Below, in pieces: positions 1,900 to 25,671 of a stretch of DNA of 25,671 bases. Below the pieces are notes generated by a model. It searched no databases, was not told the DNA's origin, and saw only the letters and a list, made by a program, of their open reading frames with translations. The DNA lies in IMG/VR virus record IMGVR_UViG_3300009146_000032, positions 1 to 25,671 of that record. The stretch is one strand, 5' to 3'. Both the position numbers and the translations under genes were made by a program. The stretch's first letter is position 1, and each line of letters starts with the position of its first letter. Origin of the DNA: a virus.

Positions 1900-2108
1900 G
1901 CGGACCGATCTGGCCGCCGGGTGAGGTCGACTGGGTGGTGCGCGGCGCCCGGGTCGTGGTCGAGGACGACCGGTATAGCTATCACGGTGAGACCGGCGTC
2001 GTGCTGTCGAGGGCGAAGTACACGGCGCTCGTGCGCCTCGACGCCGGCGAGACCGTCGACGCCGGACTCTCATCCCTGAAACCGGAGGCGACCCTTGGCG
2101 ATCCGTGA
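1896..2108 (+). CDS. Small SH3/KOW-like protein, 70 aa
   Basis: GTG at 1896 overlaps the previous stop. The 70-residue protein has a pattern typical of small SH3- or KOW-type beta barrels: 'VRGARVVVEDD', 'YHGETGVVLS', 'YTALVRLDAGE', then 'SLKPE'. Such folds bind RNA, DNA or protein; the role here is unknown. Its end overlaps the next gene by 14 bases, longer than the usual four, because that gene uses a TTG start. Confidence 0.6.
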   Translation: MSGPIWPPGEVDWVVRGARVVVEDDRYSYHGETGVVLSRAKYTALVRLDAGETVDAGLSSLKPEATLGDP

Positions 2109-2319
2109 TGACGACGGCTGCGAAGTCTGCATGGGCCGGGCCGACACGGTCGGCACGGTGGCGTTCGTGCTCGACGGCATCGACGTCGTCGTCGCCACGT
2201 GCCGGGACTGCATGGCCGCCGTGTTCACAGCGATGACCGACCGGGCGAACGACGCCGCCACGACGATCAACGCCGAGATCGACGCCCTCCTGCGCCTCCT
2301 CGGGAAGCCGGGCTCGTGA
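2095..2319 (+). CDS. Small zinc-ribbon-like protein, 74 aa, TTG start
   Basis: There is no ATG or GTG start in this frame near the 5' end. TTG at 2095 is supported by GGAGG at 2083-2087 at good spacing, so the start is decided by the ribosome-binding site. The protein has 'CEVC' (residues 9-12) and 'CRDC' (35-38), a probable Cys4 zinc site separated by a beta-rich stretch, then a helical C-terminus. It is the second Cys-rich protein of the island. The function is unknown. Confidence 0.65.
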   Translation: MAIRDDDGCEVCMGRADTVGTVAFVLDGIDVVVATCRDCMAAVFTAMTDRANDAATTINAEIDALLRLLGKPGS

Positions 2320-2562
2320 ACCAGGTCGTGGCCATCGGCGACTGCTGGCTGTGCGGCCGCACGTTCCTATTCGACGCCGACGCCGTGCCGTCGATCTGGG
2401 TCGACTCGGCCACGATGTTGTCGACACCGGATGACTGGATCCTGCCGGAGACGGCCGTGCGCGAGCCCGTGTGGCTACCGGTGTGCCCAGGCGGTCACGA
2501 CGGTGCGGCTCGACCGCGGCGTCACCGACCTGCACGGCGAGCGCTGGGCCCGCCTGTCGTGA
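2316..2562 (+). CDS. Small Cys-rich protein, apparently frameshifted near 2488
   Basis: GTG at 2316 overlaps the previous stop. The first part reads 'GDCWLCGRTFLFDADAVPSIWVD' (split here: CWLCGR, then DADAVPSIWVD), a pattern seen in small actinophage zinc proteins, up to 'VWLPVC' at 2469-2486. After this the frame gives a low-quality Arg/Pro run and reads straight into the next gene, producing an artificial 182-residue fusion (2316-2864). If one base is skipped in the CCC at 2486-2488, the text becomes 'QAVTTVRLDRGVTDLHGERW' and ends at TGA 2560-2562, which overlaps the next GTG exactly as elsewhere in the operon. The repaired product would be about 81 residues. A second Cys pair is incomplete. 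Confidence 0.55.
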
Positions 2563-2864
2563 TCTCGCGGGGGTGGATCGTGGGGGTCGCCCTGGCGGTG
2601 GTGGCCGGCATCGGGCTGGACCGGGCGTTTCTCATCCACCGGCTGCGGCGCCGGCAGGCCCGTGATCATGCGACCCGGGCCGAGCTGCTGGCCGAGATGC
2701 CGGTGCGGAGCGTGCCGCCGGTCCGCGGTGTCGTGATCGACGCCGGCGGCGGGCAGGTTGGGATCATGGTCGAGCGGGACGTCGAGGGCTATCCGGCGGT
2801 CGGGACACCGGTGGCGCTGGTCGAGACCGGGCCGTCGGTGCTCGAGGATCGCCCGGACCCGTGA
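2559..2864 (+). CDS. Membrane-anchored small protein, 101 aa
   Basis: GTG at 2559 is preferred over reading the frame from 2316, because the operon uses GTGA overlaps and a membrane helix then sits at the true N-terminus. Residues 5-20 (GWIVGVALAVVAGIGL) form one hydrophobic segment, followed by a basic stretch 'HRLRRRQARDH' and a soluble domain with 'VRGVVIDAGGGQVGIMVE' and 'GTPVALVETG', which looks beta-rich. It precedes the large terminase and overlaps it by four bases. The function is unknown. Confidence 0.55.
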   Translation: MISRGWIVGVALAVVAGIGLDRAFLIHRLRRRQARDHATRAELLAEMPVRSVPPVRGVVIDAGGGQVGIMVERDVEGYPAVGTPVALVETGPSVLEDRPDP

Positions 2865-4543
2865 ACAAGGGCGCGGCGTTCGCGGAGTGCGCGACGTCGA
2901 AGGCGCCGCTCCGGGACGGGAACCGCAAGTCGTGCGACCGGTGTGACCGTCGGGGCCGGCACTTCTGCGGGCCGCGGGCGGCGCACGTCGTCGGGTTCAT
3001 TCAGGAATGCGCGGTGCACACGAAGTCGAGGTGGGCGCGCAAGCCGTTCCTGCTGACCGACTGGCAGCGCCGGGAGATCGTCGAGCCCGTGTTCGGGTGG
3101 GTCGAGTGGTCCGCCGAGTTTGAGCAGTGGGTGCGGGTGTACCGGGTGATCTGGCTCTCCGCTGGCCGCAAGAACGGCAAGTCGGAGCTGCTGGCCGCCC
3201 TGGCCCTGTACCTGCTGCTGGCCGACGGCGAGCAGGGCGCCGAGCTGATCGGCTGTGCCGGCACCCGCCGGCAGGCCGGCAAGGTGTTCGCCGTCGCGGT
3301 GCGGATGATCCAGTTGTCCCCGGCGCTGTCCGAGCTGCTGGCCATCGGCGAGATCTCGATCACGAAGCACGACGGCGCCCGGATCGCGCACATTCCGACC
3401 GGGTCCTGGTACGAGTGCATCTCGGCCGATGCCGATAACGCGCTGGGGGAGAACATCCACGGGTGCCTGTTCGACGAGGTGGCCACCCAGCCGAACGACG
3501 CCCTGTGGCACGCCGTGCGGACCTCGATGGGCACCCGGCCGCAGGCGATTCTTATCGCAGCGACGACCGCGGGGGACCGGACGCATGGGTTCGCCGCCCG
3601 GGAGGCCGCCTACTGCAAGCGGGTCGCGGCGGACCCGGGCCTCGACCGCCGGCGGTACGTGTGGATCCGGGCCGCCTCGCCGGCGGCTGCGGTGAACGAC
3701 CCGACGGCGTGGGCCGCGGCCAACCCGGCGCTCGGCCACTTCCTGTCGCCGGCGGCCCTGGCCGACGAGGCGGCCGAGGCGATGATCGACCCGCGCAAGG
3801 CGAAGGCGTTCCGCCAGTACCGGCTCAACACGTGGCAGCGACCCGAGTCCCGGTGGCTGCCGGCCGGCCGCTGGCGCACCGGCCACCCGATCGACCGGGC
3901 GACCCTCGCCGGGCGGCGGGCGCACGGCGGCGTCGACCTGGCCGCCGTCTCCGATCTGACGTCGCTGTGCTGGTTCTTCCCGCCCCCCGACGAGGAGGGC
4001 CGGGCCGCCGCGCTGTGGCACCACTACGTGCCCGCCGCCGCGGTCGAGCGCCTCGACGAGATCACGTCCGGGTCGTTCAGCCAGTGGATCGCCGACGGCT
4101 GGGTCACGGTGACCCCCGGCGAGGTCGTCGACTACCGGCCCATGCGGGCCGACATCGCTGCGGGGTACCGGGACTTCGCGCTCAATGACCTCGGGATCGA
4201 CCGGTGGAACAGCTCGGAGACCGTCACGTGGGCGCAGGAGAACCTGCCGCGCCTCGAGGTGTCCCTCGTGTCCCAGTCGTTCATCGGCCAGTCGGCGGCG
4301 CTGAAGGCCATCGACCGGCTGCTGCGCGAACGGCGCCTCGACGTCGGCGCCGACCCCGTCGCTGCGTGGTGCGCCGCGTGCTGCGAAGTCGTTCAGGACC
4401 GGGCAGAGAACATCAAGCTGACGAAGCCGGATCGGGCGCGGGCCGCGGCCCGGATCGACGACGTCGCCGCGCTGGCCAACGCCGTCGACGGCTGGCTGCG
4501 GGCGCCGGCACCGAAGAAGAAGGGCCGCGCCGTCGGCTTCTGA
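2861..4543 (+). CDS. terL: Phage terminase large subunit
   Basis: This is the packaging motor: an N-terminal ATPase drives DNA into the prohead and a C-terminal RNase H-fold nuclease cuts it. The 560-residue length is normal for HK97-type enzymes. Visible motifs are a Walker A-like 'SAGRKNGKS' (100-108), Walker B 'CLFDE' (202-206), coupling motif 'AATT' (233-236), nuclease acidic residues in 'GGVDLAAVSDLTSL' (D359, D365) and the C-terminal acidic pair in 'RIDDVAALANAVDGW' (about 533-534). An N-terminal Cys cluster (C25, C28, C36) could bind zinc. GTG at 2861 overlaps the previous stop. The first in-frame text is unusual for the family, so the true start could be somewhat later. Confidence 0.93.
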   Translation: MNKGAAFAECATSKAPLRDGNRKSCDRCDRRGRHFCGPRAAHVVGFIQECAVHTKSRWARKPFLLTDWQRREIVEPVFGWVEWSAEFEQWVRVYRVIWLSAGRKNGKSELLAALALYLLLADGEQGAELIGCAGTRRQAGKVFAVAVRMIQLSPALSELLAIGEISITKHDGARIAHIPTGSWYECISADADNALGENIHGCLFDEVATQPNDALWHAVRTSMGTRPQAILIAATTAGDRTHGFAAREAAYCKRVAADPGLDRRRYVWIRAASPAAAVNDPTAWAAANPALGHFLSPAALADEAAEAMIDPRKAKAFRQYRLNTWQRPESRWLPAGRWRTGHPIDRATLAGRRAHGGVDLAAVSDLTSLCWFFPPPDEEGRAAALWHHYVPAAAVERLDEITSGSFSQWIADGWVTVTPGEVVDYRPMRADIAAGYRDFALNDLGIDRWNSSETVTWAQENLPRLEVSLVSQSFIGQSAALKAIDRLLRERRLDVGADPVAAWCAACCEVVQDRAENIKLTKPDRARAAARIDDVAALANAVDGWLRAPAPKKKGRAVGF

Positions 4544-17221: not shown

Positions 17222-18294
17222 TGCCGCCGTACTACCAGTTCGTGTTGACCCAGCCGGCATCCGCCGGCGGGTCCTCGCTCGCCGAGTTGACCGAGGCAAG
17301 GTCGCGGCGGCTCGACTTCGGGCTCGACGACGACGCCAAGGCGTCCTGGACGCTGCCGGGCCGGCACCAGCAGACCGCGCTGATCGATGAGATCGAGAAC
17401 GACGTCGTCGTCGCCCGGGACGGCGTCGCTCTGTTCCGTGGTCGCATCAACGCCAGCGACGACACAGTCTCGGCGAACGTGCATACCTGCACCTTCAACG
17501 CGGTCGACTACCGCGGGCTGCTCGCCCGCCGCATCCTCTGGCCCACCTCGACCGCCACGTTCACCCAGATCGACCAGGCGCAGATCGCCGCCACCCTCAT
17601 CAACGAGTCCCAGGCGCTCGGCACGCTCGGCATCATCGCCTCGCCGGCCGCCACCGGCGTGAAGCGTGACCGCACCTACGACGTCGGATCCACGATCGGC
17701 GAGCTCATCGCGTCGCTCGGCCGGGTCATCAACGGGTTCGAGTGGGACATCTCCCCGACGCTCGCCCTCAGGATCTTCTATCCCCAGCGCGGCGTGGTGA
17801 CCCCCGTGTTCGTCGCCGAGTACGGCCGCAACGTCACCGACGTGCGCCGCACCGTCGCCTCCGGGGACTTCGCCAACGCCATCCGGTACTCCGGCAAGGA
17901 CGGCGTCGCCTCGGCCATCCGGGTCATCACCCCCGGCCCGGAGGGCCGCTGGGAACGCCAGCTCGGCAACCCCGACGTCACCACCGCCGGCGCCGTCAAC
18001 GACCAGGCCGACGGCGCCATCGCCGCCGTCTCCACCATCACGCCCGCTTACAGCGTCACGTTGGCGCCCGGCGTGTGGGCGCCCGGCGTCGTGTGGCTGG
18101 GCGACACCGTCCGCCTGCTCGTGCGCTCCGGGCGCCTCGACGTGAACACGACCGCCCGGGTCGTCGGCGCCTCGATCGACATCGGCGACCACGGCGAAGA
18201 GCAGGTCAGCCTGCAGCTCGCCCGCTACCGCGGGAGCCTCCCGGCCCGGCTCGCCGACTACCAGTACCGCCTCGACCGCCTCGAAAGGAGCTGA
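17221..18294 (+). CDS. Tail tip hub protein, Tal/Gp37-like
   Basis: ATG at 17221 overlaps the previous stop. The 357-residue protein resembles the hub proteins of actinophage tails (Gp37-like / Tal N-terminal domains): 'TLPGRHQQTALIDEIENDVV', 'VARDGVALFRGRI', 'HTCTFNAVDYRGLLARRIL', 'GSTIGELIASLGRVINGFEW', 'GDFANAIRYSGKDG' and 'HGEEQVSLQLARYRG'. Such proteins form the trimeric tip. No enzymatic domain is fused. The end has an AAAGGAG that serves the next small gene. Confidence 0.75.
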   Translation: MPPYYQFVLTQPASAGGSSLAELTEARSRRLDFGLDDDAKASWTLPGRHQQTALIDEIENDVVVARDGVALFRGRINASDDTVSANVHTCTFNAVDYRGLLARRILWPTSTATFTQIDQAQIAATLINESQALGTLGIIASPAATGVKRDRTYDVGSTIGELIASLGRVINGFEWDISPTLALRIFYPQRGVVTPVFVAEYGRNVTDVRRTVASGDFANAIRYSGKDGVASAIRVITPGPEGRWERQLGNPDVTTAGAVNDQADGAIAAVSTITPAYSVTLAPGVWAPGVVWLGDTVRLLVRSGRLDVNTTARVVGASIDIGDHGEEQVSLQLARYRGSLPARLADYQYRLDRLERS

Positions 18295-18296
18295 CC

Positions 18297-18449
18297 ATGT
18301 CCAAGGGCAAGAAGTCCGGCCAGTCCGCCAAGGACCCGGACGCCTACGACACGATGCGCGACAAGGGCATGTCCAAGGGCAAAGCCGCCCGGGTCTCGAA
18401 CGCCCAGCGCACCAAGGGCCGCCGGCCCAACAAGCGCGGCAGCCGGTAG
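18297..18449 (+). CDS. Small basic protein, 50 aa
   Basis: ATG at 18297 follows AAAGGAG six bases upstream, one of the best ribosome-binding sites in the window. The 50-residue product is very basic and contains 'KDPDAYDTMRDKGMSKGKAA' with 'RVSNAQ', which resembles a family of short proteins with a KDPxxYxxLRDxGMSKxKAARIAN core (remembered as DUF7218, uncertain). Its role is unknown; nucleic-acid binding is likely from charge. It ends the plus-strand operon with TAG at 18447-18449, directly abutting the minus-strand stop. Confidence 0.75.
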   Translation: MSKGKKSGQSAKDPDAYDTMRDKGMSKGKAARVSNAQRTKGRRPNKRGSR

Positions 18450-18872
18450 TCAGCGCTCGGCGTCGGCCAGCTCTTCGGCCAGCCGGTCCCGCAGCGCCCG
18501 CAACGTCACGCCGGCCCGGTGGCCGTCCCGGTAGAACTGGCGGCCTGTCAGCTCGCCAGGGTCGCCGGCCAGACCCTGGACGAGGGCAAGGGCGAAGTCG
18601 GCCCGGTCGCGCTCGTCCATCGGCGTGGGCCGGCCCGGGTTCCCTGAAGGGCGGCCTTGCTCGACGAAGCGGATCAGCTCCTCGAGGCGTTCGGCCACGA
18701 CCAGCGCCGTCCGGTGCAGGGATAGCTCGCGGTGTAGTTCGTCGCGCGGCACGGCCCGATAGAGCTGTCCGCCCTGGGCGCCACCTGGCGCCAGTGTCAC
18801 CTCAGCGGCGAACGTGCCGTTGACGAACACCTGCCCGTTCGGGTGCACCTCGACCGCGACCGGCGAGTCCAT
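18450..18872 (-). CDS. Hypothetical protein, 140 aa
   Basis: This is the last gene of the minus-strand operon. ATG at 18872 overlaps the previous stop (TGATG). The protein has a beta-rich start ('VAVEVHPNGQVFVNGTFAAE', 'VTLAPGG'), a middle helix 'LSLHRTALVVAERLEELIRF', a Pro/Gly linker, and a helical end with 'DFALALVQGLAGDPG' and 'LRALRDRLAEELADAER'. I do not recognise the family. Its TGA (18452-18450) touches the TAG of the convergent 50-residue gene with no base between. Confidence 0.7.
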   Translation of the reverse strand: MDSPVAVEVHPNGQVFVNGTFAAEVTLAPGGAQGGQLYRAVPRDELHRELSLHRTALVVAERLEELIRFVEQGRPSGNPGRPTPMDERDRADFALALVQGLAGDPGELTGRQFYRDGHRAGVTLRALRDRLAEELADAER

Positions 18873-19678
18873 CAGCCGGCCAGCTGCTCGTCGACGGCGG
18901 CCTCGACGTCCCGCAGCTCGGCCAGCACCCGGTTCGAGCGGGCCAGGGTGGCCTGCTCGCCGCCGGCGGCCCGCGCCCGGGTCCAACGGTCGTCGCGGCG
19001 CTCGCCGGTGATGGCGGCCTGGCGCATGTGCTTGAGGGCGAGCTTGTAGGTCGTCGACCCGGATCCGTGCAGCGGGGTGGGCGATCCCTGCAGCGGCGTG
19101 TACCGCAGGATCGTGCCGTGGTGCAGCGCGGCGTACTCGACGACGAACCGCATGAGCGGCGTCAGCTCGGCGAGGTCGGCCCAGCGCTGCAGGTCGAGGC
19201 GCAGCTCGACCCGGTTGTAGTCCTCGAACCCGGGATTGAAGCGCAGCCAGTTGCCGGCGGCTAGGTGCTCGCCGCGGCCCAGCTCGGCCCGGCGGCGCAC
19301 GCACCGCCCGAGTTCCCGGCCGACGTTGCGGTCCATGTACAGCCACGCCCACGACAGGATCGACCGGCCACCGTCGGGCTCCCAGGCGATGGCCGCCGAC
19401 ATGATGGCGTCGATGGCCACGTCCATCAGGTCCTCCTCGTCCCGGCCGCCCAGCAGCCGCCGCGACGCCAGGTACTTGCGGGCCAGCGCGACTGGGTCCC
19501 GGATGGGTTCCAGACCGCGGGCCAGGCGCTGGCGGGTCTCCTCGAGGTCGTAGGCCGGGCGCATGCCGGCGGTCGGGTCGCCGTACCGTCGCCAGCGGTC
19601 GTAGTGGGCCTCGCACCATCCCCGGGCCATGGCCAGCTCGTCGCAGCCCTCGATCGAGCAACGCTGTGGCGGCTTCAC
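18872..19678 (-). CDS. Zinc-finger protein with sigma-factor-like segments
   Basis: GTG at 19678 overlaps the previous stop. The 268-residue protein starts with a CxxxxC-x9-CxxH finger (C7, C12, C22, H25) followed by 'WRRYGDP', a module often found at the front of phage HNH or DNA-binding proteins. Residues 62-130 then resemble sigma-70 region 2: 'RDEEDLMDVAIDAIMSAAIA', 'WEPDGGRSILSWAWLYMDRN'. Residues about 165-222 could be a region 4-like helical part ending 'GSTTYKLALKHMRQA'. If true, it may direct RNA polymerase to late promoters. The match is by eye and the zinc finger is unusual for sigma factors, so the function is an inference; a DNA-binding protein of another type is possible. Confidence 0.6.
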   Translation of the reverse strand: MKPPQRCSIEGCDELAMARGWCEAHYDRWRRYGDPTAGMRPAYDLEETRQRLARGLEPIRDPVALARKYLASRRLLGGRDEEDLMDVAIDAIMSAAIAWEPDGGRSILSWAWLYMDRNVGRELGRCVRRRAELGRGEHLAAGNWLRFNPGFEDYNRVELRLDLQRWADLAELTPLMRFVVEYAALHHGTILRYTPLQGSPTPLHGSGSTTYKLALKHMRQAAITGERRDDRWTRARAAGGEQATLARSNRVLAELRDVEAAVDEQLAG

Positions 19679-20094
19679 ACCGAGGCCTTCAGGTCGATGC
19701 AGTCGGCGGGGGAGCGGGCTCCGCAGCCGGCGTGGAAGTGGATCCCGAACAGGTCCATGCCGCCGGCGGCGACCATCGAGGCCAGGGCGACACCCTCGGC
19801 GAGATGGTTGAACGCCTCGGCCGTCCCCGGCGTCGGCCCGGTTACGTGACCGTCACCCGTCTTGCGGGCCTTCGTGCCCTTGGTGCGGTAGAGGATGCAG
19901 TCGCCGTGCGCCGCCACGACGTCGCCGCACACCTTGGCCCGCTCGCACATCTGGTCCGCCGGCGCACCGTGCCACTTCAACTGCCACAGCGGCACCGCGA
20001 TACGCAACGCCATCACCAGCGCCTCGTTCCAACAACTGCCGGTTCCCGCTCGGCCGTCCGCCTGCAGTTTCCCGATCGCACCGTCGAGGCCCAT
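19675..20094 (-). CDS. Hypothetical protein, 139 aa
   Basis: The family is not recognised. ATG at 20094 is preferred; TGA at 19675-19677 overlaps the next GTG. Visible segments are 'GSCWNEALVMALRIAVPLWQ', 'LKWHGAPADQMCERAKVCGD' with several Cys, 'DCILYRTKGTKARKTG', 'TPGTAEAFNHLAEGVALASM' and 'MDLFGIHFHAGCGARSPADC'. The conserved-looking Cys and His could bind metal. There is no membrane segment. It lies between the broken small gene and the zinc-finger protein. Confidence 0.65.
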   Translation of the reverse strand: MGLDGAIGKLQADGRAGTGSCWNEALVMALRIAVPLWQLKWHGAPADQMCERAKVCGDVVAAHGDCILYRTKGTKARKTGDGHVTGPTPGTAEAFNHLAEGVALASMVAAGGMDLFGIHFHAGCGARSPADCIDLKASV

Positions 20095-20100
20095 ATGCAG

Positions 20101-20358
20101 TTATCCCCGCCGCCGGTGGCCGGCGGCCCGGCAGATATCGAAGATGAGGGCGATCTGCTGGTAGTTCCCGACGTCCCACTCGGCGACCAGCTCGAACAGG
20201 TCGCGGGGCTTGCCGATCTCGGAGAACGGGCTGGGCGACACACCGGGCCAGCGCCGGGTCGTGGGCCGCGGCAGGTTCCGGTACCAGGTGTCGGCCACCG
20301 CCCGGCATCGCTCACACGTGTCCGGTGCCGTCGATCTTGGCCCGGGCACGGCGAACAC
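20101..20358 (-). CDS. C-terminal part of an apparently frameshifted gene
   Basis: The frame from GTG 20358 gives 85 residues, but its first 15 codons have poor third positions. Clear coding begins at 'DTCERCRAVADTWYRNLP' with a CxxC, then 'TRRWPGVSPSPFSEIGKPRD', 'LFELVAEWDVGNYQQIALIF' and 'DICRAAGH'. Stop is TAA at 20101-20103. The upstream piece 20312-20416, in another frame, seems to supply the N-terminus; a repaired protein would be about 110 residues. The function is unknown. Confidence 0.55.
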   Translation of the reverse strand: MFAVPGPRSTAPDTCERCRAVADTWYRNLPRPTTRRWPGVSPSPFSEIGKPRDLFELVAEWDVGNYQQIALIFDICRAAGHRRRG

Positions 20359-20416
20359 TGTCGGTGGCCATCGTCCGCAGCTGGCCGGCCGTGCTCGTGT
20401 CGCAGGTCGTGGTCAT
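20312..20416 (-). pseudogene. N-terminal part of the same gene, broken at about 20314
   Basis: ATG at 20416, preceded by GGGTGAG, opens a 34-residue frame with almost perfect G/C third positions: 'TTTCDTSTAGQLRTMATDSV', 'RRARAKIDGTGHV', then TGA at 20314-20312. Just there (minus-strand text CACGTGTGAG) the other frame takes over with TGTGAGCGATGC = CERC. Two bases missing from a GTGTGT run, or one extra base, would explain it. It may instead be a separate microprotein overlapping the next gene. Confidence 0.45.
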
Positions 20417-20450
20417 CTCACCCGGCACCGGGGTTCATGAAGGCCAGAGC

Positions 20451-20837
20451 CTAGAGACGGCCCTCGCCGGCGCCGGGGACCGTTGCGTTACCGAACCCAC
20501 CGTCGACGGCCGCGGTGCGCCGGCTGTGACAGGGCGTGCACCGGGCCTGCAGCCACTGGTCGCCGTCGGGGTCGACGACGCCGGCGGCCACCAGCTGCCG
20601 GCGGGAGACGGGCGCGTGGTCGGACTGGGTGGCCCGGGCGCCGCAGTCGACGCAGAACGGGTGCCGGGTCAGGTGCTCGGCCGACCGGGCCGCCCAGGCG
20701 CGGCCGTACCCACGGGCCGACGGCGTCCCCCGGGCGACCTCGGCCCGGCGGTCACAGTCGCTGCAGCGTCCCCGCCCGGGTGGCGGCCGTCCCGGGCACC
20801 CAGGTGTCGAGCAGCGCCGTGCGGGCCGGGCCGGCAC
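20451..20837 (-). CDS. HNH endonuclease, HK97 gp74-like
   Basis: HNH proteins of this type work with the terminase of cos phages and are needed for packaging cuts. The 128-residue product has zinc-binding Cys pairs (C9/C14, C25/C28, C62/C65, C100/C103), 'SDHAPVSRR' carrying the catalytic DH (D73, H74) and 'CTPCHSRRTAAVDGGFG' with the final His (H104). GTG at 20837 is used; AGGAAG in the palindrome upstream is its likely ribosome-binding site. Unusually it is far from the terminase, in the lysis operon on the other strand. Confidence 0.85.
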   Translation of the reverse strand: MPARPARRCSTPGCPGRPPPGRGRCSDCDRRAEVARGTPSARGYGRAWAARSAEHLTRHPFCVDCGARATQSDHAPVSRRQLVAAGVVDPDGDQWLQARCTPCHSRRTAAVDGGFGNATVPGAGEGRL

Positions 20838-20839
20838 CG

Positions 20840-20855
20840 GTAGGAATCTTCCTAC
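20840..20855. repeat. 16-bp palindrome spanning holin stop and HNH ribosome-binding site
   Basis: GTAGGAA, two bases, TTCCTAC is a perfect inverted repeat. In the minus direction it contains the TAG stop of the holin-like gene and the AGGAAG that precedes the HNH GTG. Folding would hide the ribosome-binding site, so translation of the upstream gene could couple or limit HNH synthesis. A protein-binding site is also possible. Confidence 0.45.
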
Positions 20856-21124
20856 GTCTTGGCTGAGGGGTGGGCGGCCCAGCCGAGGACGGCGCCGATG
20901 ATCAGCGACAGCTGGGTGTCGAGGACCTGGGCGAGAGCGGAGCGGTCGGCCTCGGGCCGGAAGACGGCCAGCGCGGCGAGGGTGACGACGCTGATGAGGA
21001 GCAACGCCGCGGCGATCTTGCCGAAGATCAGCAGGAGCTCGTCGGCGGCCTCACGCCTCGGCTCGGCGGTCACCTCGAGCTCGACGGGCTCGCCTGGAGG
21101 GGTCAGGTCACCGGTGCTGTCCAT
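20852..21124 (-). CDS. Holin-like membrane protein, 90 aa
   Basis: It lies directly after the endolysin and overlaps its end by 22 bases. Residues 1-30 are acidic and cytoplasmic-looking, residues about 30-56 form a hydrophobic helix ('LLIFGKIAAALLLISVVTLA') and about 70-84 a second ('TQLSLIIGAVLGWAA'), ending in a short polar tail. Two spans, small size and the endolysin neighbour support a holin, which would make membrane lesions to release the lysin. There is no sequence-level family match that I can name. Confidence 0.65.
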   Translation of the reverse strand: MDSTGDLTPPGEPVELEVTAEPRREAADELLLIFGKIAAALLLISVVTLAALAVFRPEADRSALAQVLDTQLSLIIGAVLGWAAHPSAKT

Positions 21125-22251
21125 GAGGCCATCCAGGTCTGGGGGCCGACGACGCCGTCGACGGTGAGGTTCTTGTCGGCTTGGAACGACTTGCAGATCC
21201 CGAGGCTCTCGCGGCCGTACCAGCCGTCGGTGTCGAGGCGCCATCCGCGGGCGGCCATCTGGGTCTGCCACTGGGTCACGTCGCCGCCGTGCAGCATCGG
21301 GTCGGCCAGCAGCAGGTACCGGCCGGGCCACGCCGGTGACGGCCCGGGCGCCGGCGTCGCCGGGCGCGCCCAGGCGTAGGCCTCGGAGATCACGTGCATC
21401 GTGGCCGGCCCAGCCACGCCGTCGACGACCAGGCCGTGAGCGGCCTGCAGGGCACGCACCGCCGTGTCGGTGTCGCCGCCGAACACGCCGTCGGCGCCCG
21501 CGGGCCCGCACGGGTAGCCCATCCCGATCAGCAGCTCCTGCAACATCTTCACGATCCCGCCCGACATGCCCATCCGCAACATGCCGTCCTGCTGCGGCTC
21601 GGTCGGGGTGCCGACGCCGGTGGGCGGCGGGATCGGCCGGCCCTGCCCGGCGAGGATCTCGAGCACGAGATCCCGGATCCGGTGGGCGTTGATCTTGCCG
21701 GCGTCCCAGTGGTCGTTGAACGGGATGTACACGTGCGCCGCGATGCCGTCGAAGCGCTTCCACGCCTCCGGGCTCATCCGCTGCGGCGCCGACTCGGTGG
21801 CCAGCGTCCCGGACAGGGAGCCCATGTCGGGCGTGTTGTGCGGGTTGATCGGCACCCCGCAGCCGATGACGTCGGCGATCACGTCGGCGATCTGGTAGAG
21901 CGTGTCGTCGTCCCAGCTGGCGGTCTCGGCGGCCCGACCGCAGATCTCCATCTGGATGGCCCGACCCCGGTTCGTCTGCCACCCGGCCCGGCCGCCCTTG
22001 AGGGCGCACGCCGACCAGTCGAGCGGGATGTACTGCACCCGCCGCCGGGTGCCCATCGGGTCGATCGTGAGGTGCGGCGCCGAGCACGGCTTGCCCTTGA
22101 ACAGGTTGTTGATCCCGTTGATGCTGCCGGCCGGCGACTCCGTCGTGTGCAGCACGAACGCCCAGGCGTAGTCGCCGTGCATCGTGCCCGGCCCGGTACA
22201 CGACGTGATCTGCAGGCGCTCGTACTTGGCGGCCGGCAACCAGGACTGCAT
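21103..22251 (-). CDS. Endolysin: N-acetylmuramoyl-L-alanine amidase with two peptidoglycan-binding repeats
   Basis: This enzyme cuts the bond between muramic acid and the stem peptide to lyse the host. Of 382 residues, about 25-195 form an amidase-2/PGRP-type domain: likely zinc ligands H35 ('VLHTTESP'), H173 and D183 ('AHVYIPFNDHWDAGKIN'). A Pro/Gly linker follows, then two PG-binding-1 repeats: about 225-285 ('GADGVFGGDTDTAVRALQAA', 'VDGVAGPATM') and 320-377 ('TDGWYGRESLGICKSFQ', 'TVDGVVGPQTW'). ATG at 22251 overlaps the preceding stop. There is no signal peptide, consistent with holin-dependent export. Confidence 0.9.
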   Translation of the reverse strand: MQSWLPAAKYERLQITSCTGPGTMHGDYAWAFVLHTTESPAGSINGINNLFKGKPCSAPHLTIDPMGTRRRVQYIPLDWSACALKGGRAGWQTNRGRAIQMEICGRAAETASWDDDTLYQIADVIADVIGCGVPINPHNTPDMGSLSGTLATESAPQRMSPEAWKRFDGIAAHVYIPFNDHWDAGKINAHRIRDLVLEILAGQGRPIPPPTGVGTPTEPQQDGMLRMGMSGGIVKMLQELLIGMGYPCGPAGADGVFGGDTDTAVRALQAAHGLVVDGVAGPATMHVISEAYAWARPATPAPGPSPAWPGRYLLLADPMLHGGDVTQWQTQMAARGWRLDTDGWYGRESLGICKSFQADKNLTVDGVVGPQTWMASWTAPVT

Positions 22252-22466
22252 CAGACGGCCGTGACCCGCTCGACCCGGTCGGCCAACGCCCGCAGCAGCC
22301 CGGGCAGGTACTCGTCGACGGCGGGTTGCAGGACCAGCGGGCCGATGCCGACGGTGACGTGCCGGCCGGGCAGCTCGTCGTCGCCCTCGTGCGTGGCGAT
22401 GTCGGCCGCCCGCACATCGTCGGCGCTGATCACGAGCGACGCCGTGAACGGCCGGAGACCGCACAT
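22251..22466 (-). CDS. Hypothetical protein, 71 aa
   Basis: ATG at 22466 and TGA at 22253-22251 overlap the neighbours in the TGATG pattern, so this is a real member of the operon. The small acidic protein begins 'MCGLRPFTASLVISADDVRA', continues 'HEGDDELPGRHVTVGIGPLV' and ends in a helix 'LPGLLRALADRVERVTAV'. No family is recognised and there is no membrane segment. It precedes the endolysin. Confidence 0.65.
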   Translation of the reverse strand: MCGLRPFTASLVISADDVRAADIATHEGDDELPGRHVTVGIGPLVLQPAVDEYLPGLLRALADRVERVTAV

Positions 22467-22933
22467 CAGCGCTGGGACCCGAACGTGGTCTCGATGCCGC
22501 CACCCGAATCGGCGACGGCGTCAGCCGCCGCGTCCCGCCGGCGCTGCTGCCGTTCGATCTGCGGGTGTTCGAGTGGCTGTTCGAGTGTTCCGGCGTCGGC
22601 GGCCGGCGGGTCGGCCTCGAGGCGCCGGCGGGCCTCGGCCGCCAGGTCGTGGAGGCGGCCGGCGAGGATCACGATGCGCTCGCCGAACGGGTTGCGGGCC
22701 GACCGGCCGATCTGCTCGACCCGGCGGGCGAGGTCGCTCAGCTCGCGGGTGCCGAGCGTGCCGACACGCCCGGGCACGTCGGCCAGCCCGGTCATGGCCG
22801 GGTCGTCGTCCTCGTCGCCGTCGGGGTCCTCCTCGCCGGGCGTGCCGGGCTGAGGCGGCATGTCGGGACCGGCCGGCGCCGTCGGGTCGGGCTGGTCGGG
22901 CAGCGGCTGGTCGGGAGGGAAGGCGGTGCTCAT
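22466..22933 (-). CDS. Acidic proline-rich protein, 155 aa, first gene of the lysis operon
   Basis: The frame is open further upstream, but ATG at 22933 is chosen because a TANNNT element stands eight bases before it. Residues 1-50 are Pro/Asp/Glu-rich and disordered-looking ('FPPDQPLPDQPDP', 'EEDPDGDEDDD'). The middle is a helical segment ('LADVPGRVGTLGTRELSDLA', 'RRVEQIGRSARNPFGERIVI', 'LAGRLHDLAAEARRRLEAD'), then a Gln/Arg-rich stretch. The N-terminal style resembles the scaffold but the helix does not. The function is unknown. Confidence 0.7.
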   Translation of the reverse strand: MSTAFPPDQPLPDQPDPTAPAGPDMPPQPGTPGEEDPDGDEDDDPAMTGLADVPGRVGTLGTRELSDLARRVEQIGRSARNPFGERIVILAGRLHDLAAEARRRLEADPPAADAGTLEQPLEHPQIERQQRRRDAAADAVADSGGGIETTFGSQR

Positions 22934-22941
22934 GGCCGTCC

Positions 22942-22970
22942 ACGCTAGGAGCGCGGCCCGCCGGGGTCGC
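22942..22970 (-). promoter_or_regulatory. Predicted leaderless promoter of the minus-strand lysis operon
   Basis: On the minus strand GCGACC (22970-22965), 17 bases, TAGCGT (22947-22942), eight bases, then ATG at 22933. There is no Shine-Dalgarno sequence. The arrangement is close to the portal promoter (GTGACC, 16, TAGCCT, 7, GTG), so the two late operons may share one type of promoter. Two examples are too few to be sure. Confidence 0.4.
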
Positions 22971-23020
22971 GGACGAGGGGATCCGCCGGCGCCCGGGCGC
23001 CCTGGGCGACGATCACACCC

Positions 23021-23104
23021 ATGACCGTCACCGACGTCCTGCTGTGGATCATCCTCGCCGGGGTCGCCGTCCTCGTCCTGCTGGCGATCCTCCGCCGGGC
23101 CTGA
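23021..23104 (+). CDS. Possible membrane microprotein, 27 aa
   Basis: ATG at 23021 opens a 27-residue frame that is almost entirely one hydrophobic helix ('VLLWIILAGVAVLVLLAILR') ending RRA. All codons after ATG end in G or C, except none visible. It has no ribosome-binding site and stands alone on the plus strand, divergent from the lysis operon, with hairpins just after its stop. It matches the style of the other one-helix peptides (1703, 1807, 4624). It may be chance. Confidence 0.4.
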   Translation: MTVTDVLLWIILAGVAVLVLLAILRRA

Positions 23105-23126
23105 TCCACCGCGCCGGTCGCCGGCG

Positions 23127-23153
23127 GACCCCCGGTTCCCATGCCCGGGGGTC
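23127..23153 (+). terminator. 9-bp hairpin after the 27-residue frame
   Basis: GACCCCCGG (23127-23135), a nine-base loop, then CCGGGGGTC (23145-23153) is a perfect stem. There is no T run on either side. It stands 22 bases after the stop of the small plus-strand frame and 14 before a larger hairpin; the pair could insulate the lysis promoter region from the integration region. Confidence 0.45.
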
Positions 23154-23166
23154 GTCCGGCAACGGT

Positions 23167-23212
23167 CACGGCCCGCCCGCCCGGTCGGGTCGTCCGGGTC
23201 GGGCGGGCCGTG
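23167..23212. terminator. Large GC-rich hairpin, probable bidirectional terminator
   Basis: CACGGCCCGCCCG (23167-23179) pairs perfectly with CGGGCGGGCCGTG (23200-23212), a 13-bp stem; the loop can form a further CCCGG/CCGGG stem. It is followed by no T run, as is common for terminators in high-GC bacteria. It lies between the lysis side and the attP/integrase side and is symmetric, so it could stop transcription from either direction. Confidence 0.6.
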
Positions 23213-23260
23213 CCACATGCCGCTCGCTAGCGCTGGTTGCGGACCGTCACGTACCCTCGT

Positions 23261-23457
23261 CTGGCCGCAGGTTGGCCGCAAGTGGCCTCAGATCGGCCAA
23301 ATCAAGAGGGCTGGGTGGTAACCGTTATTCGATTCGGAGGGGTGCGGCGACCACGAAGGATGGCCTCGCACCCCAGGTGACCAGCAGAATTGATGCAGCC
23401 CAATGCATCCCCCGGCACCCCAGTTTCGCCTCGTTTGGCCGCAAGTTTGGCCGCAAG
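23261..23457. other. Candidate phage attachment site (attP)
   Basis: Two clusters of short direct repeats flank a spacer next to the integrase gene. Left: CTGGCCGCAG (23261-23270) and TTGGCCGCAAG (23272-23282). Right: TTTGGCCGCAAG twice in perfect tandem (23434-23445, 23446-23457). These look like arm-type integrase sites. Between them, GATGCA-N6-TGCATC at 23392-23409 has the form of core-type sites around a crossover. The core identical to a host tRNA or gene cannot be identified without host sequence. The stretch 23213-23484 has no gene. Confidence 0.55.
23339..23374. repeat. 8-bp inverted repeat inside the candidate attP
   Basis: GGGGTGCG (23339-23346) and CGCACCCC (23367-23374) are exact reverse complements 20 bases apart, with a small CCA/TGG pair inside. 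It could be a terminator, a binding site for an accessory factor, or part of the bacterial target captured in attP. It is too short to be a tRNA. Confidence 0.4.
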
Positions 23458-23484
23458 CTGTCAGGCCTTGCCCAGCTTTGAACT

Positions 23485-23508
23485 CGCCCGACGCCGTGCC
23501 GTCGGGCG
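23485..23508 (-). terminator. Hairpin after the integrase operon
   Basis: CGCCCGAC (23485-23492), eight-base loop, GTCGGGCG (23501-23508): a perfect 8-bp stem placed 15 bases beyond the last stop of the minus-strand integration operon (23523). It lacks a T run. It would end int transcription before attP. Confidence 0.55.
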
Positions 23509-23522
23509 CCCGCAGCGTGCCC

Positions 23523-23615
23523 TCAGCCGATGGTGACCGCCGTGTGAAGGTCCGAGAGCGACACTGGCGACGGATCCTCGACGGGGTCGATGTCCACGGT
23601 CAGCGTGAACCTCAT
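23523..23615 (-). CDS. Small protein after integrase, 30 aa
   Basis: ATG at 23615 overlaps the integrase stop as ATGA. The 30-residue product begins 'MRFTLTVDIDPVEDPSP' and continues 'VSLSDLHTAVTIG'. A small protein starting MRFTLT is common in actinophage genomes as I recall. The codons mostly end in G or C. The function is unknown. Confidence 0.5.
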   Translation of the reverse strand: MRFTLTVDIDPVEDPSPVSLSDLHTAVTIG

Positions 23616-24745
23616 GCCTGGGTACCCCCTTCGCCGGTGGCCTCGCCGTCCTCGGCCTCGGGCTCGGGGACCGGGCCGAGCGCCGCGTTGAGGGCGGTCT
23701 TGGCCATCGGGTCCGAGTCGCGCAGCCAGTGGGCGTAGGTCGACGCGATCGTCTCGACGGCGTCGCCGACGTAGGCCGCGACCTCCGCAAGGGGGACCCC
23801 CCGGGCGAGCATCGCGGAGACGCAGTAGTGCCGGGCCGCGTGGAACTTGAAGCGCATCGGGTCGAGCCCGGCCGCCTTGAGGGCGGCCTGCCACTCCTTG
23901 TAGAAGTCAGCCCGCGACACGACCAGGAAGGGAACCTGAGACGTCGGGTCCTCGCCCATGATCCTGCGCAGGTAGAAGAGCACGACGTCGGGCAGGTCGA
24001 TGGTTCGCTTCCCGCGCCAGGTCTTCGGGCCGACCCGACCGCGGCGGGCCTGCTGGGCGTCGATGGTCAGCGTGCCGGCTTCGAGGTCGACCTGGGCGGG
24101 GGTGACGCCGAGGATCTCACCGATGCGCAACCCGCACCCGATCCCGAGGGCGACGGCGATACGGAACGAGGCCGCCGCGGCGGCGAGGATGGCGAGGGCC
24201 TCGGCGTGGGTCGGGACATCATCCGCGGTGACGATGCCGGCGCTGTCCCGGGTGTCCCGGCGAGGCATCTGCAGCCGGATCGTGGGATCCGAAGGGATGA
24301 GCCCATCGTCGAAGGCCTGCCGCATGACGGCCTTGGTGTAGTGCATCGTGAGCTTGACCGTGTTCCGGGCGTAGCGCGTCAGCAGGGTCTTCTGCAGCGC
24401 CTGCAGACGGAGCTTGCTGAGGTCGACCAGACGCATCTCGCCGATCTCGGCGTAGGCCCGCTTCAGCGGTGTGTGCACGGCTGTGGGATCAGCCGGGCTC
24501 TGCGCGGCGCGCCACACTTCGGCGAACGCCTCGAACGTGTCGGTCGAGGGCGGCGGTGGCTTGTCGGGCGGGTGTTCGGCGACCCGCTCCTGCTTCTCGA
24601 AGAGCTTGGCCTTGGTCATCTCGTTCGGTCCGAAGTGCCGGTGGGCCTGGGAGCGGTCGAGGCGCCGGGCCTCGACGCAGATGATCTCTCCCTCCTTCGG
24701 TGCGCAGCGCTCGCCGCTGCCGGCCTTGACTCGCTTGATGCTCAT
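23612..24745 (-). CDS. int: Tyrosine integrase
   Basis: It joins attP to the host attachment site and, with an excisionase, reverses this. The 377-residue length is typical. The N-terminal arm-binding part is basic, a SAM-like core-binding domain covers about 68-155, and the catalytic domain shows R207 ('GCGLRIGE'), a beta-hairpin Lys (K241 or K246), H302 and R305 ('FHAARHY') and nucleophile Y337 ('STYAHW'). The usual LGH histidine is replaced by Asp (YVGDAVET, D328), a variation I believe occurs in actinobacterial integrases. ATG at 24745 has AGAAGGG about nine bases upstream. The last bases overlap the 30-residue gene. Confidence 0.93.
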   Translation of the reverse strand: MSIKRVKAGSGERCAPKEGEIICVEARRLDRSQAHRHFGPNEMTKAKLFEKQERVAEHPPDKPPPPSTDTFEAFAEVWRAAQSPADPTAVHTPLKRAYAEIGEMRLVDLSKLRLQALQKTLLTRYARNTVKLTMHYTKAVMRQAFDDGLIPSDPTIRLQMPRRDTRDSAGIVTADDVPTHAEALAILAAAAASFRIAVALGIGCGLRIGEILGVTPAQVDLEAGTLTIDAQQARRGRVGPKTWRGKRTIDLPDVVLFYLRRIMGEDPTSQVPFLVVSRADFYKEWQAALKAAGLDPMRFKFHAARHYCVSAMLARGVPLAEVAAYVGDAVETIASTYAHWLRDSDPMAKTALNAALGPVPEPEAEDGEATGEGGTQA

Positions 24746-24781
24746 GTTCGCTACCCTTCTGGTGCTTGCTGTGAATGGTTG

Positions 24782-24813
24782 ACGGGCCGGGTCGGTGCTT
24801 CGACCCGGTCCGT
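24782..24813 (-). terminator. Strong hairpin between the 83-residue gene and integrase
   Basis: A 13-bp stem with one G-T pair: bases 24782-24794 pair with 24801-24813 around a six-base loop (core CCGGGTCG/CGACCCGG). In the minus direction it follows the stop of the 83-residue gene (24818) and precedes the integrase start by 36 bases. It has no T run in that direction; on the plus strand a TTTCGTT follows. It may reduce integrase expression from the upstream promoter. Confidence 0.55.
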
Positions 24814-24817
24814 TTCG

Positions 24818-25069
24818 TTATCGAACGCCCTCGGTGATGAGCATCGGCGGCAGCATCAGGCGGCCGTCGTCGCCGTCGTAGCCGCAGAGCACGACGGGCG
24901 GGCCGAAGATGTCGGCGTCCATGCCGGCCAGGGCCTCGACGTCGGCGAGGCTGTCCATGCGGCGCTCGCGGAGCAGCTCGGCGTCGGTGTACCGGTAGAT
25001 GTGCAGGACGACGCCGCCGGGCTGGCGGCCGGGTTCGATGCTGCGGGGGAACCGGTCGTCGGTGCTCAC
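24818..25069 (-). CDS. Hypothetical protein, 83 aa
   Basis: GTG at 25069 overlaps the stop of the HTH gene (GTGA), which decides the start. The protein has 'GGVVLHIYRYTDAELLRERR', 'MDSLADVEALAGMDADIFGP' and 'VVLCGYDGDDGRLMLPPMLI', alpha/beta in appearance. No family is recognised. Being between the HTH gene and integrase, it may take part in integration control, but this is only context. Confidence 0.65.
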   Translation of the reverse strand: MSTDDRFPRSIEPGRQPGGVVLHIYRYTDAELLRERRMDSLADVEALAGMDADIFGPPVVLCGYDGDDGRLMLPPMLITEGVR

Positions 25070-25320
25070 GGCCGCTGTGTTCCCGGCCGAGGTGGGCGCC
25101 GAGGGTCGCCGTCGAGGATGTCGAGGGGCTGGAGTCGCCGGCCGGTGAGGCTGGCCCACTGGACGAGCTCGCCGTAGGCGATGAGGTGGCGGCCGGCGGT
25201 GGTCCAGGTGGGGTCGAGCGCGCCGCGTTGGATGAGCTTCTTGACGGCCTCGGGCGACATGTTGAGGAGTGCAGCGCAGTCACCTACGGAGAGGGGACGG
25301 TACTTCACGCGGGGTTCCAT
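25066..25320 (-). CDS. HTH DNA-binding protein, probable excisionase
   Basis: Excisionases bend attL/attR so that integrase can reverse the reaction. ATG at 25320 is chosen over the longer open frame because a TACAAT stands seven bases upstream and the text before it is not protein-like. The 84-residue protein has a winged MerR-like helix-turn-helix ('YRPLSVGDCAALLNMSPEAV', 'KKLIQRGALDPTWTTAGRHL', 'IAYGELVQWA'), as in the HTH_17 family. First place in an operon with integrase supports Xis; a small repressor is the alternative. Confidence 0.7.
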   Translation of the reverse strand: MEPRVKYRPLSVGDCAALLNMSPEAVKKLIQRGALDPTWTTAGRHLIAYGELVQWASLTGRRLQPLDILDGDPRRPPRPGTQRP

Positions 25321-25327
25321 GTTCGGG

Positions 25328-25333
25328 ATTGTA
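25328..25333 (-). promoter_or_regulatory. -10 element of the integration operon
   Basis: Minus-strand TACAAT (one base from TATAAT) lies seven bases before the ATG at 25320, with no Shine-Dalgarno sequence between. This predicts a leaderless transcript. No good -35 hexamer is seen; at that distance there is instead a palindrome (25347-25357), so activation or repression there is likely. Confidence 0.5.
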
Positions 25334-25346
25334 GCGTCCCCAGCAA

Positions 25347-25413
25347 GGGACAGTCCCCCTAAGGGGATGGCGTAACTACATAGACGTAACTTGTCCCTCT
25401 GGAGGGAAAGTTT
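25347..25413. promoter_or_regulatory. Cluster of palindromes and direct repeats, probable lysogeny-control operators
   Basis: Within 67 bases there are GGGAC-A-GTCCC (25347-25357), CCCCT-A-AGGGG (25356-25366), the direct repeat CGTAACT at 25371-25377 and 25385-25391, and a long imperfect inverted repeat AACTTgTCCCTC / GAGGGAAAGTT (25388-25412) followed by TTTTC. The first lies over the -35 position of the HTH-gene promoter. The last could also be a small terminator on the plus strand. Confidence 0.5.
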
Positions 25414-25415
25414 TC

Positions 25416-25627
25416 TCACGCCTCGTGGCCATCACCGGATCAAGCCGTATCAGACGGTCGGTACCGGTATGCCACGGGCGTAGTGCGAGAGGTGTCGGAA
25501 TAGGTGCCGATACGCGCCCAGCGTGCATCACACCCTTGGGGACCATCCTTGACCTGGCCGTCTCCGTGTGGCGTAGTTCACGGCCGGCGGGTGACGCACC
25601 GTGATCACGCCAAGGAGGCACACGACA
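25416..25627. other. Divergent intergenic region before the right-arm gene
   Basis: No credible gene is seen; the base composition is less GC-rich than elsewhere. It contains two related 10-base words, AGGTGTCGGA (25490-25499) and AGGTGCCGAT (25502-25511), twelve bases apart. A possible plus-strand promoter is TTGACC at 25549-25554 with GTAGTT at 25573-25578 (18-base spacing). AAGGAGG at 25612-25618 is a perfect ribosome-binding site for the gene at 25628. Confidence 0.45.
25549..25578 (+). promoter_or_regulatory. Possible rightward promoter
   Basis: TTGACC matches five of six bases of the -35 consensus; GTAGTT eighteen bases later is a weaker -10. It is 50 bases upstream of a gene start with a strong ribosome-binding site, and divergent from the integration operon. 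It would be the early lytic (PR-like) promoter. The weak -10 limits confidence. Confidence 0.35.
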
Positions 25628-25671
25628 ATGGCTCCACCACACACCCCACGAAAACAATTATTAACGACACG
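25628..25671 (+). CDS. Start of a plus-strand gene cut by the window end
   Basis: ATG at 25628 lies nine bases after AAGGAGG. Fourteen codons are visible, 'MAPPHTPRKQLLTT', open to the window edge. The codons CGA AAA CAA TTA TTA ACG are far more A/T-rich than the left arm. This would be the first early gene of the right arm. The product cannot be named. Confidence 0.5.
   Translation, partial: MAPPHTPRKQLLTT

Follow-up and report, generated by a model that had tools for sequence, protein, structure and literature searches.

Does the reading frame at 18872-19678 (- strand) encode a phage sigma factor equipped with a zinc finger, as the original prediction had proposed? The window, that is, the whole stretch of DNA that was analysed, is IMG/VR record IMGVR_UViG_3300009146_000032, with a length of 25,671 bases and a GC content of 71%; no near-identical phage is on record. 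Its + strand up to 18294 carries siphophage head and tail genes, which include those for the terminase small and large subunits, the portal, the major capsid protein, the tape measure and a minor tail protein. After 18294 follows a convergent gene block on the - strand, to which the frame in question (hereafter P0001) belongs. According to the ORF list, P0001 starts with GTG at 19678, stops with TGA at 18874-18872 and encodes 268 amino acids. The GC content at its three codon positions is 0.74/0.52/0.94 overall, and every segment is coding-like by this measure. P0001 is thus a real gene of 268 codons. It overlaps each neighbouring ORF by a few bases: the stop of the upstream ORF B (19675-20094, - strand) overlaps its GTG start (GTGA), and the ATG of the downstream ORF C (18450-18872, - strand) lies on its stop. 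This arrangement suggests that its translation is probably coupled with that of both neighbours. For these two ORFs, no recognisable relative turned up in Pfam, PHROGs or the phage collection.

Further upstream on the same strand are another ORF (20101-20358), an HNH endonuclease gene (20451-20837), a holin-like ORF (20852-21103), an endolysin gene (about 21103-22326) and an integrase gene (23612-24745). The position of P0001 downstream of the lysis genes is by itself no proof of a late role, and a scan for sigma-70-type promoters over 17800-25671 of the window found none. We compared the slot between tail genes and lysis genes across related phages. In a phage with the same type of capsid and tail (L007), the slot holds an ORF resembling ParB/DNA methyltransferases (1917-3215, - strand), and in another (L008) it holds an HNH gene and a similar ParB/DNA-methyltransferase-like ORF (2314-4071, + strand), both of these ORFs being named by eye from their translations. 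The slot is therefore variable, and P0001 lies outside the shared core. No full-length relative of P0001 was found among 29 related viral records, by peptide patterns in viral and genome contigs, or by tblastn in phages and plasmids. Scanning genome contigs with the large terminase gave no match, and no host was assigned.

The N terminus of P0001 certainly contains a zinc finger. It occupies 19571-19660 (- strand, residues 7-36), follows the pattern C7-x4-C12-x9-C22-x2-H25 (Cx4Cx9CxxH) and ends in GDP. The CxxxxC/CxxH finger of the original prediction is thus present, but its type is common to phage HNH endonucleases and is not a feature of sigma factors. Residues 6-36 matched two HNH endonuclease families, phrog_5351 (E=2.6e-7) and phrog_1271 (E=1.3e-5), which share with P0001 the N-terminal Cx4Cx9CxxHY...GDP, and tblastn of P0001 matched phage HNH proteins, with most matches stopping shortly past the finger. 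Taken together, the family and tblastn matches stop at or before residue 61, with the exception of one weak gapped match. These comparisons identify the finger as the common N-terminal finger of phage HNH endonucleases. Scanning viral contigs with the finger pattern returned at least 120 stretches, and the matches listed comprise 121 distinct viral ORFs. Inspection by eye classed many of these as HNH proteins, and a crude regular expression classed 50. HNH is the usual partner of this finger. In one finger ORF (L107, match at 4469-4512, - strand), the C terminus is helix-turn-helix-like and no HNH is evident, which indicates that the HNH-type finger has other partners as well. The HNH endonuclease encoded at 20451-20837 (- strand) in the window itself carries an N-terminal cysteine finger, CSTPGC...CSDC, whose layout resembles that of the P0001 finger. 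This neighbouring protein is a possible local source of the finger.

Beyond the finger, the original prediction pointed to two strings, DEEDLMDVAIDAIMSAAIA and WEPDGGRSILSWAWLYMDRN, as following the sigma-70 region 2 pattern; both are found in P0001, at residues 80-98 and 99-118. They cover the core motif EDL-x14-WEP-xx-G at 19367-19435 (- strand, residues 82-104). After back-translation, this motif occurs once in the window and never in 100 dinucleotide shuffles, so its presence is more than chance, its meaning as a sigma motif being a separate question. In an alignment with E. coli sigma-70, the spacing DL-x14-aromatic-x4-G is the same in the two proteins. The residues D86 and V87 of P0001 stand at the positions of sigma-70 Q406 and E407, two contact residues of that protein, and these replacements call for caution about the predicted binding of P0001 to core polymerase.

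The searches against sigma families were mixed. When a piece of 72 amino acids was searched, Pfam Sigma70_r2 (PF04542) matched with E=0.041 and 14.1 bits, the cutoff being 24, and was the sole Pfam match for residues 61-132. A Sigma70_r2 search of the whole window record gave E=0.002, only at P0001, and the same search of the 29 related viral records gave no match. With a longer piece of P0001, TFIIB_C_1 was also matched (E=0.055), and the Pfam search with the full-length protein reported neither family. TIGR02937 (Sigma70-ECF) and phrog_351 had no match in the record at E<=10, nor did an NCBIfam search of P0001 return a match. Combining Pfam with hhalign, we placed the sigma-70 region 2-like segment at 19298-19498 (- strand, residues 61-127), which weakly matches region 2.

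How much can the motif alone tell us? The DNA pattern for EDL-x14-[FW][DE]P-xx-G picked out sigma factors, judged by eye, in 77 of 88 stretches of viral contigs. When the motif was shortened by leaving out E and its aromatic position was fixed as W, there were 43 viral carriers, of which only about 10 were sigma factors. Since most carriers of the W form are not sigma factors, the motif alone is no proof of sigma identity for P0001. Three viral proteins (L299, L318 and L330) share the region 2-like motif DLFSCIDxxFIxTCRAWDPxKGTFSTLLTVFCEG, and in L299 Pfam sees region 2 alone.

The controls were matched for the motif and for the finger; the labels sigma and chance on the motif matches were assigned by eye, and Pfam and PHROG confirmed a sample of the sigma factors. 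With a profile built from 13 viral sigma factors, hhalign gave P0001 a probability of 67.6%. The best among 40 motif-matched non-sigma ORFs reached 24.6% (L324, possibly a sigma factor itself) and the next 7.7%, while the 121 finger ORFs reached at best 28.4% among the matches listed. Other viral sigma factors scored at least 60% in 59 of 71 cases, the weakest at 20.7%. P0001 thus scores above both control sets and towards the low end of the range of true viral sigma factors. A profile of 49 non-redundant viral sigma factors gave 26.8 bits to P0001, at most 18.8 bits to chance motif hits and at least 38.5 bits to left-out sigma factors. When the motif columns of this profile were masked, the score of P0001 fell to -2.1 bits, within the chance range. 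A fixed-register matrix without the motif columns still gave p=0.009 when compared with shuffles and p=0.0125 with 506,738 background positions, but the score was under that of all true sigma factors bar one doubtful case. A profile of 13 phage sigma sequences chosen without the motif gave 3.5 bits. By these tests together, the similarity of P0001 to sigma factors is borderline and carried mostly by the motif.

On this evidence, we suggest, with a probability of about 0.55, that P0001 is a very divergent phage sigma-like protein. The region 2 assignment of the original prediction is the best-supported reading by Pfam and by hhalign against the controls, but it stays below the curated cutoffs and is not secure; the profile search it proposed scored above the controls with hhalign and gave no match with TIGR02937, phrog_351 and NCBIfam.

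The main alternative, which we regard as possible but not probable, is a DNA-binding zinc-finger protein of HNH-associated type, with a non-sigma helical body in whose alanine-rich helices DL-x14-WEP-xx-G arose by chance. The scarcity of sigma factors among carriers of the short W form, the drop of the masked profile to chance level and the silence of several sigma models would all fit this explanation. Chance, however, does not readily account for an hhalign score that exceeds every one of the 40 chance carriers and 121 listed finger ORFs, or for non-motif columns that by themselves still yield p of about 0.01. An HNH endonuclease in decayed or variant form, with its finger kept and its nuclease part lost or changed, is unlikely. 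In its favour, this finger usually comes with HNH, and about 0.8 kb upstream the same strand carries an HNH gene whose finger is similar. No HNH match, however, followed the finger in the family and tblastn searches; the HNH fold that the original prediction named as a refuting outcome is not what is seen. The reading frame also stays open and coding-like through to its end, unlike a decayed gene.

Structure prediction was also considered. From the single sequence of P0001, AF2 reached a pLDDT of only 36. When 13 viral sigma ORFs were added to the input, the block pLDDT over residues 61-120 was 78-96, and the best solved matches of this model were sigma domain 2, with Z of about 9-10. Because the input held sigma rows, the model is no independent evidence, and the domain 2 that the proposed structure prediction delivered is conditioned on them. 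A Foldseek search with the same model found nothing at E<=0.001 in PDB or BFVD; sigma factors made up many of the top rows, and among the viral rows A0A516LLJ9, an unnamed entry, ranked best (E=1.5e-3).

By contrast with region 2, the region 4-like segment of the original prediction did not hold up. Its expected position, 19010-19186 (- strand, residues 165-223), is not recognisable as region 4. Two HMM profiles and hhalign found nothing convincing over residues 131-268, and a region 4 helix-turn-helix was accordingly rejected; with the sigma rows in the AF2 input, pLDDT was mostly 31-51 over residues 141-230 and mostly below 50 at the expected position. Some of the sampled viral sigma factors likewise have no Pfam region 4 (L241, L212, L299 and L317).

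If P0001 is indeed sigma-like, the fold of residues 61-127 would be that of sigma domain 2. This segment would engage host RNA polymerase at the beta-prime coiled-coil and open the -10 element, and the N-terminal HNH-type finger would contribute DNA contacts. Since region 4 is not recognisable in P0001, we propose that the finger perhaps takes over what region 4 contributes in ordinary sigma factors. The promoters it would choose, the timing of its action and the genes it would serve are likewise matters that we infer. That such proteins form a whole class of phage sigma factors, with promoter recognition served by an HNH-type finger fused to sigma domain 2 instead of by region 4, seems rather unlikely. 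A finger-plus-EDL pattern matched 24 times in viral contigs, with no finger-sigma fusion among the matches, and no paper in the literature searched combined phage sigma factors, zinc fingers and HNH.

P0001 resembles the phage sigma-70-family factors (phrog_351; PF04542) in the region 2 motif and its spacing (DL, 14 residues, aromatic, acidic, P, G) and in helical layout, and its length is similar to those of the small phage sigma factors L256, L241 and L309. It differs from them in a similarity that stays under curated cutoffs, in the changed Q406/E407 positions, in the extra N-terminal zinc finger and in the missing recognisable region 4. From the finger-bearing phage HNH endonucleases, it differs in having no HNH nuclease motif after the finger. 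T4 gp55, a late sigma factor, is a phage sigma-like protein that functions without a region 4 of its own, and gp33 and gp45 are its T4 partners. P0001 would be like gp55 in being sigma-like without its own region 4, a likeness by description with no homology shown, and unlike it in that no counterpart of gp33 or gp45 was identified here.

Sigma factors encoded by phages are already well known: a survey of 4,350 phage genomes found at least one in 13.4% of them (PMC9429907). What P0001 would add, if our reading is true, is a DNA-binding finger that a transcription factor shares with phage HNH endonucleases. It would also be a case, in a high-GC siphophage, of a sigma-like protein functioning with no recognisable region 4.
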